DNA from: an archaeon
GTDB lineage: Archaea > Thermoproteota > Nitrososphaeria > Nitrososphaerales > UBA183
DNA length: 64,000 nucleotides
Assembly: GCA_021788415.1 (NCBI GenBank)
Contig: JAJYKR010000001.1
Location: 392,682-456,681, forward strand
Reading direction: 5' to 3'
The position numbers and the translations under genes are program-made. Shown one piece after another: positions 18,623-25,229 of this stretch. Positions within the stretch are counted from its first letter, which is position 1. Each line of letters begins with the position of its first letter. The notes beneath the pieces are model-generated. The model made no database searches, had not been told where the DNA came from, and saw nothing but the letters and a program-made list of their open reading frames with translations.

Positions 18623-20938
18623 GTGGTCGCGGCCAAGGAGCTGGAGGACGACGCGAAGAAGTACGCCTCCGAGGCGATCAGGCTCGACTCACAGGGGGCC
18701 CACGGCATGGCCATCCAGATGTACCAGAAGGCCATCTCCACCCTGGTGAAGCTGGTCCACCTCTACCCCGACTACAGGCTCAACAAGCAGTACACGGAGA
18801 GGGCCATGGCCTATCAGGAGAGGGTCAAGGCCATCCAGGCGGCCCACGGGCTGCTCCCTCCGGACTCGTCACAGGAGCCCGGCTGGACCCCGGGGACCGT
18901 GGTCGGGAAGCCCGGCTCGGGGGCACCGCCGACTTCGAGCCCCAACTCCCCTGCCGGCCCCCAGGTCGTGCAGCAGCTGAAGGCGTCCTTCAACGAGCTC
19001 GTGGTCACCGAGAAGCCTGACGTGAAGTGGGACGACGTCATCGGCCTGGAAGACTGCAAGCAGGCGATACGCGAGTCCATCGTATTCCCCTACCTGCGCC
19101 CAGACCTCTTCAAGCTCGGGTGGCCCAGGGGCATCCTCCTCTACGGCCCGCCAGGATGCTTTGACGAACAGACGGAGATCCTTACCAAGCGGGGATGGAA
19201 GAAATACACCGAACTGGCCGATGACGAGGTCGTGGCCACGCTCAACCCCGGCACGAACGAACTCGAGTACCACCCGATTGTACGAAAGATCCAATATCAT
19301 TACGAAGGAAAGATGTACCGCCTGGAGTCCACCCAGGTCAGCCTGATGGTCACGCCCGACCATCAGCTCTGGGTAGGGAAGAAGGCTCAGCAGGGCAAGG
19401 TGAAGTACGATTTTGCCCATCCAGGTGATGTGTTCGGAAGGAGCAACGGCGGCACTTACCCCTACTACAAGAAAGATGCCAAGTGGCGCGGCATCGACAG
19501 GGAATTCGTTCTTCTGCCCCAGCGCGAATCAGGGAGCGGGCCAAAACATGAGGAGATCAGGATACCCATGTCCGAATGGGCCCCGTTCTTCGGGCTTTGG
19601 CTTGCCGAGGGTTATACCGCCTACTGGGGAGGCAATTACCACGTCGGGATAAGGAACCTGGACCAGGACCTCCTCGACTTCGCATACGATAGCCTCAAGA
19701 AGTGGGGGCTCAACCCACATTACTCTTCAGACGGGCGCGTAACGGTCCTCAACAAGCAACTGTACGAGCTCCTCCGGCCGATCGGCGACAAATACACCAA
19801 GTACATTCCGGATGAAATCAAGGACCTGTCCCCCGCCCTCCTGCGGAGCATCCTGGAGTACTACGCGCGGGGCGATGGGACGCACGAGGTGGACGAAGCC
19901 GAGGTTGGCGCCACCAGGGTGCGTTGCCAAACTTCCTCGCCGCGCTTGCGGGACGACCTGATGGAAATCACCCTCAAGGCGGGCATGGCGTGCAACTATG
20001 TGGTCCACACGGATGCCGGTTCCACGGCCGCCATCGTAGGGGCGGATGGAAAGGAGAGGACGATAACTCGGACGACGGCCAACTACAGGCTGAGTATCCT
20101 ATATCGCAGAGGCGAAACGCGAGTCGACAAGCCCAGCATAGAGCAGTGGGAGGACTACTCGGGCATGGTCTGGGACGTGACTGTCCAGAACCACGTCATC
20201 TACGTCAGGCGCAACGGCAAGGCCGTATGGAGCGGCAACTGCGGGAAGACCATGGTCGCAGCTGCCACGGCCGCCGAGATCGACGGCTACTTCATCTCTG
20301 TCGACGCGGCCTCCATCATGAGCAAGTGGCTGGGGGAGGGGGAGAAGAACGTGGCCAAGCTCTTCGCCAACGCCAGGAAGATGCTGGGCGACAACAAGCC
20401 TGTCATAGTCTTCGTCGACGAGATCGACTCGCTCCTCGGGACCAGGGGCCAGGAGGTGGGGGGCGAGGTGAGGGTCAGGGACCAGTTCCTGAAGGAGACC
20501 GACGGCATCAACGACAAGGGGAAGAACCTCCACTTGTACGTCATCGGAGCCACCAACAAGCCGTGGTCCCTCGACCCTCCTTTCCTTCGCAGGTTCTCCA
20601 AGAGGATCCTGGTCCCCCTCCCGGACAACGACGCCCGCATGGCGCAGTTCAAGCTCTACACCGCGCCGCTCACCCTCGCGGAAGACGTCGAGCTTCCAAC
20701 CCTGGCCAAGCTCAGCGAAGGGTATTCGGGGAGCGACATCAAGGACATCTGCCAGGGGGTCCAGTTGAGGGTGGTCAGGGAGCTGTTCAAGTCCGGCAAC
20801 GCCCTCGACAAGGAGTCGTCCCCGCGCCCCATCGACCTGAGCGACTTCAAGGAGATAATGAGGACGAGGAAGCCTTCGGTGTCCCCCGACATGCTCCGGG
20901 CCTACCAGCAGTGGACGAACAATTTCAGCGCCCTCTAG
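18623..20938 (+). CDS. cdvC: Vps4-like AAA+ ATPase CdvC, interrupted in frame by an intein
   Basis: 771 codons that should give a 410-residue Vps4-type ATPase after protein splicing. The N-terminal MIT domain (residues 1-75) binds ESCRT-III tails; a Pro/Ser linker follows, then the AAA+ module starting at about residue 130 (WDDVIGLEDCKQAIRESIVF). The Walker A motif GPPG/CGKT is split between Gly178 and Cys540 by the intein. Walker B is VIVFVDEIDSLLG, and the sensor and second-region-of-homology segments (IGATNKPWSLDPPFLRRF) follow. The C-terminal Vps4 helix is present. The GTG at 18623 follows cdvB by 2 nt. It disassembles ESCRT-III filaments during division. Splicing must occur for any ATPase activity. 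Confidence 0.93.
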   Translation: MVAAKELEDDAKKYASEAIRLDSQGAHGMAIQMYQKAISTLVKLVHLYPDYRLNKQYTERAMAYQERVKAIQAAHGLLPPDSSQEPGWTPGTVVGKPGSGAPPTSSPNSPAGPQVVQQLKASFNELVVTEKPDVKWDDVIGLEDCKQAIRESIVFPYLRPDLFKLGWPRGILLYGPPGCFDEQTEILTKRGWKKYTELADDEVVATLNPGTNELEYHPIVRKIQYHYEGKMYRLESTQVSLMVTPDHQLWVGKKAQQGKVKYDFAHPGDVFGRSNGGTYPYYKKDAKWRGIDREFVLLPQRESGSGPKHEEIRIPMSEWAPFFGLWLAEGYTAYWGGNYHVGIRNLDQDLLDFAYDSLKKWGLNPHYSSDGRVTVLNKQLYELLRPIGDKYTKYIPDEIKDLSPALLRSILEYYARGDGTHEVDEAEVGATRVRCQTSSPRLRDDLMEITLKAGMACNYVVHTDAGSTAAIVGADGKERTITRTTANYRLSILYRRGETRVDKPSIEQWEDYSGMVWDVTVQNHVIYVRRNGKAVWSGNCGKTMVAAATAAEIDGYFISVDAASIMSKWLGEGEKNVAKLFANARKMLGDNKPVIVFVDEIDSLLGTRGQEVGGEVRVRDQFLKETDGINDKGKNLHLYVIGATNKPWSLDPPFLRRFSKRILVPLPDNDARMAQFKLYTAPLTLAEDVELPTLAKLSEGYSGSDIKDICQGVQLRVVRELFKSGNALDKESSPRPIDLSDFKEIMRTRKPSVSPDMLRAYQQWTNNFSAL
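19157..20239 (+). mobile_element. Intein with LAGLIDADG homing endonuclease inserted in CdvC P-loop
   Basis: A 361-residue insertion from Cys179 to Asn539 of the host frame. N-terminal splicing block A begins CFDEQTEILTKRGWKKYTEL; block B is LMVTPDHQLWV, with the conserved TxxH. Dodecapeptide endonuclease motifs are GLWLAEGYTAYW and ILEYYARGDGTH. The C-terminal splicing region is WDVTVQNHVIYVRRNGKAVW, then SGN, with Cys as the +1 extein residue. The penultimate residue is Gly rather than the usual His; other inteins with that change still splice. The DNA is visibly less G+C-rich and uses more A/T-ending codons than the flanking exteins, which suggests recent acquisition. Confidence 0.92.
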
Positions 20939-23455: not shown

Positions 23456-23598
23456 CTCTGAGAATGCTCCGCTATGCGCGCATAAAAAATGTTCGGAGGC
23501 CGGTCATCTGGGGCGCCTTCCTGGCGCCTCGGCGGCCTCACAGCTCCCGCTGGCTCACGGGCCTGTAGCGGGGCTTCCCCTCGCCGTCTCCTGGGCTT

Positions 23599-23940
23599 CT
23601 ACTTCGCGAGCTTGATCTCTATGGAGGAGACGTTGCTCATGCCACCGGTCATGGTGCTCTTGACCTGCTCCGTGTTGATGGCGATGTTCTGCACACGGAC
23701 GTCTGTGGCGAACCTCTTCGTCAGCACCTGGGCCACGTCGACCGCCCGCGAGATCGCTCTTCCTCGAGCTTTCACGGTGACCGGGTTGGACCCATTGTTG
23801 ATCTGCGTCAGGACGGCAAGAACGTAGTTCAAGCCACCGAACGAAGGGTGTACCTTCTATTCGTTTGTGGGCTTCTTGCCGACGTAGATCGTGTTTGGTT
23901 CGCGTGGTTGCATTTCTTCGTGTTCTGGTTGGTTGGCCAT
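23599..23940 (-). CDS. alba: Alba chromatin protein, interrupted by a 33-nt intron-like insertion
   Basis: Alba binds DNA and RNA as a dimer and is a major archaeal chromatin protein. The gene reads from ATG at 23940: 25 codons ending GKKPT, then AAC GAA TAG, an in-frame stop. The rest of Alba resumes at NYVLAVLTQINNG (23829 down), with KARGRAISRAVDVAQVL and the C-terminal VSSIEIKLAK. If 23832-23864 is removed, the joined sequence reads GKKPTMNYVLAVLTQ, the expected Alba core, giving 102 residues. The promoter (GATAAATAG, plus 23963-23971) lies 27 nt before the ATG, so transcription begins at the true start. TTG at 23832 could start a 77-residue N-truncated form, but that would lack strand 1. 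Confidence 0.9.
23832..23864 (-). other. Probable archaeal bulge-helix-bulge (BHB) intron in alba mRNA, 33 nt
   Basis: In mRNA sense the region folds as CCAC-AAA-CGAA ... UUCG-GUGG-CUU. The 4-bp central helix CCAC/GUGG is flanked by a 3-nt bulge AAA on the 5' strand and a 3-nt bulge CUU on the 3' strand. The intron-side helix CGAA/UUCG continues into GAAGG/CCUUC. This is the geometry cut by archaeal splicing endonuclease, after the second bulge base on each side. Those cuts give exon 1 ending ACA-A and exon 2 starting TG-AAC, which rebuilds ACA ATG AAC. Farther out, exon bases GGCAAGAA and UUCUUGCC can pair (8 bp), although an asymmetric internal loop separates them from the core. Splicing itself is inferred. 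Confidence 0.85.
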
Positions 23941-23962
23941 TGGACTCGATGTCTTTCACGGC

Positions 23963-23971
23963 CTATTTATC
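23963..23971 (-). promoter_or_regulatory. TATA box of alba
   Basis: GATAAATAG on the minus strand, centred 27 nt before the alba ATG at 23940, which implies a leaderless transcript starting at or next to that ATG. This matters because it places transcription upstream of the interruption and shows that the 5' exon belongs to the expressed gene. Confidence 0.7.
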
Positions 23972-24131
23972 CGCTATGAATGAAAGGTCTATCTCAAGCC
24001 CCGGCGTCGACCCGAAGCCGGGATCAGGCTCCGCCCTGGCCCGGGAGGGGGTGAGCCCGGGGCCGGCCTCCGCCCCGTCGGACGAGGGTCCCGGCGCTAA
24101 GTTTAATCCCCATGTCATCGGCGCGCCTGCT

Positions 24132-25229
24132 ATGCGCCTATACGAGTATCAGGCGAAGGAGCTCTTCAGGGAGTACGGCCTCCCGGTCCCCCTGTCCGTC
24201 CTTGCCAGGGACCCGGCCGAGGTGAAGGGGGCCTTCGCGTCGCTAAAGCCCCCGGTCGCCGTGAAGTCGCAGGTCCTGGCGGGGGGGAGGGGGAAGGCAG
24301 GGGGCATCGCACTGGTGGACGGGCCGGACAAGGCCGAGGCCGAGGCGAAGAGGATCTTCGCGCTCCCCATCGGAGGGGAGAGGCCCGCCGCGCTGCTGGT
24401 CGAGGAAGCTTACCCTCACGACTCTGAGATGTACCTCTCGGTGACCCTCGACAGGGGGGAGAGGTCCTTCGTGGCCATCGCGGCCAGCGCGGGAGGGATC
24501 GAGGTGGAGTCCCTCTCCGGCAAGGTGGTGCGCAGGGTCCCGGTCGACGGCATCGACGAGAAGTTCGCGAAGGACGTCGCCTCGGAGCTGAAGCTCCAGG
24601 GTGCCCAGGCCGCCCAGTTCGCCAAGATACTGCTTTCGCTCGAGCGCCTCGCGAGGGAGAAGGAGTGCGAGCTCGCCGAGATCAACCCCGTCGCCGTGGG
24701 GAAGGACGGGACCCTCCTCCCACTGGACGCCAAGGTGATCGTCGACGACAACGCCCTCTTCCGCCACCCAGAGTTCTCCAAGCTCCACCCCGAGGACGAG
24801 TTCGAGGGGGAGGCGTCGCGCCAGGGCTTCGCCTTCGTCAGGCTGGACGGGGACGTCGCCGTGGTGGGGAACGGGGCCGGGCTGGTCCTTTCGACCCTCG
24901 ACCTGGTCGGGGACGCGGGAGGGAAGCCCGCATGCTTCCTGGACCTGGGCGGGGGGGCACAGCAGGACAGGGTCGAGGCGGCGATCCGACTGGTCAACAG
25001 GCTCCCAGGGGCGAGCAGGATACTGGTCAACATCTACGGGGGGATCACCCGCAGCACCGACGTCGCCGCCGGGATCAAGGCCGTGATATCCGAGGGGGGG
25101 ATGAAGCCCATCTACGCCAGGGTCAGCGGCGCCGAGGAGGAGGCAGCCCGCCAGATGCTGGCGGGGACGGCGGTCAGGATGTACAAGACCGCCCCGGAGG
25201 CGGTGGCAGCGGTGGTGAAAGGGGCATGA
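24132..25229 (+). CDS. sucC: Succinyl-CoA synthetase beta subunit (ADP-forming type)
   Basis: 365 residues. ATP-grasp N-terminal domain (LYEYQAKELFREYGLPVP, KSQVLAGGRGKAGGI) and the CoA-ligase-like C-terminal domain (FLDLGGGAQQDRV, LVNIYGGITRSTDVA) are both complete. With the alpha subunit it interconverts succinyl-CoA and succinate with substrate-level phosphorylation, in the TCA or a related cycle. The ATG at 24132 is exactly 27 nt after TATA-like GTTTAATC, so the longer upstream reading is discarded. The stop overlaps the sucD start (ATGA), which indicates translational coupling. Confidence 0.95.
   Translation: MRLYEYQAKELFREYGLPVPLSVLARDPAEVKGAFASLKPPVAVKSQVLAGGRGKAGGIALVDGPDKAEAEAKRIFALPIGGERPAALLVEEAYPHDSEMYLSVTLDRGERSFVAIAASAGGIEVESLSGKVVRRVPVDGIDEKFAKDVASELKLQGAQAAQFAKILLSLERLAREKECELAEINPVAVGKDGTLLPLDAKVIVDDNALFRHPEFSKLHPEDEFEGEASRQGFAFVRLDGDVAVVGNGAGLVLSTLDLVGDAGGKPACFLDLGGGAQQDRVEAAIRLVNRLPGASRILVNIYGGITRSTDVAAGIKAVISEGGMKPIYARVSGAEEEAARQMLAGTAVRMYKTAPEAVAAVVKGA

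Follow-up and report, generated by a model that had tools for sequence, protein, structure and literature searches.

A predicted bulge-helix-bulge intron interrupts the coding sequence of an archaeal alba gene

The alba locus and its insert

The window (the whole 64-kb stretch of DNA that was analysed) carries an alba gene on its minus strand. From the ATG at 23940, the unspliced frame reads MANQPEHEEMQPREPNTIYVGKKPTNE and then meets a TAG stop. Translation reproduced two observations of the sequence-only reading, namely that the Alba frame ends at a TAG after GKKPTNE and that the protein sequence is taken up again 33 nt past GKKPT. Removal of the 33-nt insert (Table 1) joins the two parts into a frame of 102 aa, the stop of which ends at 23599. 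The joining creates the GKKPTMNYVLA stretch that had been claimed, and the ATG so restored is the codon present at this site in 16 intronless orthologs. The joined protein scores 70.3 bits with the Pfam Alba model, versus 56.3 bits for the post-insert part alone. The genome to which the window belongs has three Alba matches; two start at the profile start and belong to uninterrupted genes, and that of the window starts at position 13. A promoter had been placed just upstream of the alba ATG, and a TATA-like ataaatag was indeed found there. Because this box sits 30-23 nt before the ATG, it suggests a leaderless alba message.

A bulge-helix-bulge (BHB) motif had been claimed at the borders of the insert, and it is there as described: the central helix CCAC/GUGG is flanked by the bulges AAA and CUU, the inner helix is CGAA(U)/(G)UUCG, and in each bulge the predicted cut follows base two. 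Strict BHB cores (4+3+4, Watson-Crick, loop 4-60) are, however, common in the DNA of the window, with 155 and 146 on the two strands (301, as a raw count). These 301 cores provide 188 frame-joining readings (101 + 87, the phases of one core being counted apart). A BHB core alone therefore proves nothing, and the motif was dropped as stand-alone evidence. What is far from chance, by the sequence comparisons described below, is the place of the insert together with its conservation and covariation. A group I or group II intron was rejected, given that no Rfam match was obtained at E up to 1 in 23500-24150 and that the insert is 33 nt long.

Table 1. Features of the alba gene, its insert and the predicted stem (window positions)
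Feature	Position	Strand	Basis
TATA-like box ataaatag	23963..23970	-	30-23 nt upstream of ATG, from sequence
alba exon 1, 76 nt, ATG 23940 to ..CCC ACA A	23865..23940	-	frame; few residue changes among intron-bearing alleles
33-nt insert ACGAATAGAAGGTACACCCTTCGTTCGGTGGCT, read as intron, TAG in exon-1 frame	23832..23864	-	frame, covariation, orthologs
alba exon 2, 233 nt, starts TG AAC TAC, includes stop	23599..23831	-	frame, Pfam Alba
Outer exonic stem, 5' strand GGCAAGAA	23873..23880	-	weakly supported
Central helix, 5' strand CCAC, in exon 1	23867..23870	-	pairing model
5' bulge AA^A, predicted cut at ^	23864..23866	-	frame + geometry
Inner helix, 5' strand CGAAU	23859..23863	-	pairing model
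Apical stem, 5' strand GAAGG	23853..23857	-	pairing model
Apical stem, 3' strand CCUUC	23843..23847	-	pairing model
Inner helix, 3' strand GUUCG	23838..23842	-	pairing model
Central helix, 3' strand GUGG, in intron	23834..23837	-	pairing model
3' bulge CU^U, predicted cut at ^	23831..23833	-	frame + geometry
Outer exonic stem, 3' strand UUCUUGCC	23815..23822	-	weakly supported

On the opposite (plus) strand, which is the sucC strand, the complement of the apical stem forms a terminator-like hairpin at 23843-23857 with a T-rich tail. A pattern scan returned this hairpin as its single match, 0.6 being expected by chance.

The window also encodes, at 18623-20938 on the plus strand, a CdvC/Vps4-like ATPase (MIT, AAA), which NF041006 matches in three stretches, below its cut-off. 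About 350 residues interrupt its AAA domain, starting with CFDEQTEIL after GPPG and ending with HVIYVRRNGKAVWSGN before CGKT. No intein model matched this insertion at 1e-5. By the motifs at its ends, this insertion in the Walker A motif looks like an intein.

Presence, absence and covariation among relatives

Alba matches were found in 58 of 61 genomes searched with the Alba protein family, and eight of these matches start at profile position 12 or 13, where the insert lies. When genomes of the window's taxonomic family were searched with the post-insert protein, 33 of 46 matched: 20 of the 31 genomes of the window's genus and 13 genomes of other genera, in which the site was inspected in G032, G033 and G035. 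Of 28 loci submitted to extraction, two did not fit the pattern (the G034 locus and a second, partial copy from G016), which left 26 sequences. The insert is present in 10 loci of eight genomes and absent from 16 orthologous sequences, always with reference to the same codon, so that the alignment of sister genomes that the sequence-only reading had called for supports it. Within the genus, seven of 20 genomes have the insert (one of these, G009, additionally having an intronless copy) and 13 of 20 are intronless only. A divergent sucC is the neighbour at eight of 10 loci with the intron and at 14 of 16 without it, hence the distribution is mostly one of presence and absence at a single locus; the remaining two intron-bearing loci start within 415 nt of the contig start.

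The insert is 32 nt long in G012 and G035, 33 nt in G004, G016, G027 and the window's genome (G000), and 34 nt in G023 and three G009 copies. In the 33-nt alleles the two coding halves share one frame with a TAG between them, whereas in the 32- and 34-nt alleles they lie in different frames. A single rule, excision, yields Alba in all 10 intron-bearing loci, and the split codon is identical in every one of them (ACA A^ ... ^TG AAY).

Over the tree built from all 26 sequences, the intron label changes five times, at least four of these on well-supported branches; nine of 500 shuffles were as low. Since the introns resemble each other, this suggests one gain of the intron followed by several losses. 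A search of the window's genome at up to 3 mismatches returned the alba copy only, with no further copies of the intron elsewhere. The G009 metagenome-assembled genome contains four alba alleles (L034, L035, L036 and L206): three have the 34-nt intron, one lacks it, and no fewer than three of the four adjoin a sucC copy. They could represent a mixture of strains or genuine paralogs; close to the site, the allele lacking the intron shows many synonymous differences. G035 belongs to another genus, and its alba (L207) matches the G012 gene almost exactly, including the intron, as contamination or gene transfer would both produce.

The coding halves have changed little at the residue level. In 12 chosen intron-bearing pairs (a selection, not every pair), the 13 codons compared in exon 1 differ by 0-1 residues and by 1-6 synonymous changes per pair. 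G035 was omitted from the Fisher test and from the pair count below because its site equals that of G012, which leaves nine distinct intron alleles. The codon before the site is ACA in all nine, as against one of 12 intronless Thr orthologs (Fisher 3e-5, kinship-naive), and this retention fits the need of the 5' bulge for AA.

In a 13-pair model of the stem (three central, five inner and five apical pairs), 94.0% of 116 cells are paired across the nine alleles, compared with 30-44% in slid controls. Changes on both sides occur in seven pairs, a number reached by eight of 500 shuffles, and in 19 cells, which none of 500 shuffles reached; the number of further pair types was not raised (10, versus a shuffled mean of 11.8, with 497 of 500 shuffles reaching 10). 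One covarying pair crosses the exon-intron border, joining the wobble base of a Pro codon in exon 1 to a base near the 3' end of the intron; it is GC in five alleles, CG in four and broken in none. RNAalifold recovers much the same stem. The outer exonic stem has 6-8 of 8 pairs in intron-bearing and 4-8 of 8 in intronless sequences (p 0.0005, kinship-naive); as extra evidence it was set aside as weak, since two intronless orthologs also have the full 8 pairs.

Strict geometry, that is four central pairs at the canonical distance to the 3' cut, is found only in G000 and G004 (two of the nine distinct alleles), and in these two, cuts after the second bulge base rebuild the product. The motif is relaxed in the other seven: G009a has four central pairs with one extra base on the 3' side, and G016, G027, G012, G023, G009b and G009c have three of the four, the last three also with the extra 3' base. 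For the 34-nt alleles to rebuild it, the 3' cut would have to move on by one base, or one base would have to bulge out of the central helix. Shifted pairs of cuts keep the frame too, with L, V or K where M would stand. In G000 the BHB fold is less stable than the best fold by 0.4 kcal/mol, and the best fold there pairs the last intron bases; the gap is 8.7 kcal/mol in G016 and 11.1 in G027. The relaxed geometry and these gaps in fold energy are the weakest points of the splicing reading.

Splicing enzymes and known archaeal introns

The window's genome encodes two paralogs of EndA (PF01974). Paralog 1 aligns over its length with the endonuclease chain 3p1z_B and has the motif GPGIDHAP, at the His of which chain 3ajv_B has Ala; both entries are from Aeropyrum pernix. 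Paralog 2 has Pro in place of the catalytic His, according to an alignment to 1a79. A catalytic and a His-lacking EndA together are, by gene sequence, the composition expected of the (alpha-beta)2 type. This type is assigned to Thaumarchaeota and linked with non-canonical introns in a review (PMC4090602). An enzyme that tolerates relaxed motifs is likely to be at hand, because the EndA pair of this genome matches the type tied to such introns. RtcB is encoded as well. ARAGORN places introns at no fewer than 13 of the 30 tRNA loci scanned. Many of these loci (L171-L200) are intron-bearing, and in some the intron perhaps lies off the usual anticodon-loop site.

Few archaeal mRNA introns are available for comparison. 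According to PMC7714728 (2020), the cbf5 intron is the only one reported before, besides the case of the HVO_1309 5' UTR, and in the open papers searched cbf5 is the single gene for which splicing of an archaeal pre-mRNA counts as confirmed (PMC7714728, PMC2738675). The cbf5 intron of Crenarchaeota (Sulfolobales and Desulfurococcales), for which gain, losses and a relaxed motif are described in PMC2738675, resembles the alba insert in being short, in residing in a protein gene, in having a BHB-like and often relaxed motif, in its association with a hetero-oligomeric EndA (for alba, a predicted one) and in its patchy distribution among relatives. It differs in gene and in archaeal group, and the alba insert is 32-34 nt long and a predicted intron. 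Membership of the cbf5 intron lineage, or a link to the cbf5 intron, was rejected, as cbf5 of G000 is uninterrupted (model positions 5-322 of 322, in a single open frame of 341 aa).

Archaeal tRNA BHB introns share with the alba insert the motif and the expected enzymes, and relaxed hBH and HBh' forms of them are known (PMC4090602 and PMC6379350). Unlike in these, the substrate in alba would be a coding message, in which the exons form the flanking helices. The BHB sites of HVO_1309 in Haloferax volcanii are an instance of an mRNA cut by archaeal EndA (PMC7714728), which for alba is a prediction; these sites lie in a 5' UTR, whereas the alba insert splits a coding sequence. PMC2738675 also mentions unconfirmed intron predictions in other archaeal or archaeal-virus protein genes, likewise of the BHB type and outside cbf5. 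No description of an alba intron was found, by title or abstract start, among the matches listed from the open literature searched. The alba insert would extend pre-mRNA introns of the BHB type to a further gene and a further archaeal group.

Excision and the competing explanations

We propose, with a probability of about 0.9, that the 33-nt insert in alba is a pre-mRNA intron, the excision of which by the archaeal tRNA-splicing endonuclease is predicted. The alleles carry a BHB motif, strict or relaxed, the genome has genes for an endonuclease and a ligase, and the coding sequence interrupted is a conserved one with intronless orthologs. Presence and absence at one codon, covariation across the splice border, a conserved exon 1 and the complement of enzymes all favour the BHB-type intron put forward by the sequence-only reading. 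Transcription would start at or near the alba ATG, the exons and the intron would fold into the stem, EndA would cut after AA and before UG, RtcB would seal the exons, and the ribosome would read an Alba message of 102 codons. A ribosome arriving first would make a 27-residue fragment from the unspliced allele of the window. That the intron acts as a switch is a speculative and rather doubtful extension. A leaderless message would have only 76 nt before the intron, so that the endonuclease would have to beat the first ribosome and alba output would be set by a race between splicing and translation; and since an Alba-family protein is able to unwind RNA (PMC7498313), Alba could conceivably melt its own splice motif and thereby limit its own level.

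Were the message not spliced, internal initiation at the TTG or GTG at the end of the insert would provide a 77-aa Alba without its first strand, and exon 1 would be a leader or a relic. Such a codon, in frame with NYVLA, is present in all 10 intron-bearing loci, the genome has its two uninterrupted Alba genes, and short proteins of this kind are called in public annotations (for instance P0075, P0096 and P0098, 77 aa). The fact that exon 1 retains the Alba residues REPNTIYVGKKPT despite synonymous change, that the stem covaries over the splice border and that ACA is kept in nine of nine distinct alleles makes internal initiation improbable; moreover, the 14 nt before the NTG share no ribosome-binding stretch recognisable by eye, and the product would miss 11 positions at the start of the Pfam model. 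The same two intact Alba genes, along with the patchy gains and losses, would also suit decay, in which the insert disrupted a redundant alba copy, by now a pseudogene. Decay is very unlikely, however, considering that the insert has been kept in eight genomes with few residue changes on both sides and that its stem covaries.

A ribosome hop over the insert, assisted by the stem, would cover 32, 33 and 34 nt alike, and the hairpin could help it. In translational bypass, the take-off and landing codons match as a rule; the codons at the alba site, ACA versus TTG or GTG, do not, and the exon-intron pairing and the split ATG seem to be features of splicing and not of a hop, which leaves bypass very little credence. 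Stop readthrough or an assembly error could be entertained for the window's allele by itself, where the halves on either side of the 33-nt insert stay in frame and one TAG separates them. Readthrough cannot explain the allele set, because the 32- and 34-nt alleles place the halves in different frames, and an assembly error is at odds with the occurrence of the insert in separate assemblies, eight named records among them. Both were rejected as contradicted by the relatives and are hardly conceivable.

If the splicing reading is true, Alba is one of very few archaeal proteins encoded by a gene with an intron, and protein genes have been colonised by BHB introns on more than one occasion. The 26 sequences offer ready material for studying how the intron was gained and lost and which rules govern relaxed cutting.

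Among the best 120 of 2927 database matches, none was an identical full-length protein that could stem from a spliced cDNA, and in 15 of these 120 the start lies beyond the intron site or the N-terminus is in a wrong frame. Such mis-started Alba annotations show a blind spot of gene calling. In P0088, P0089, P0093, P0095, P0102 and P0110, the Alba N-terminus looks like exon 1 and the intron read in the wrong frame; that of P0095 was checked against the DNA of G035.
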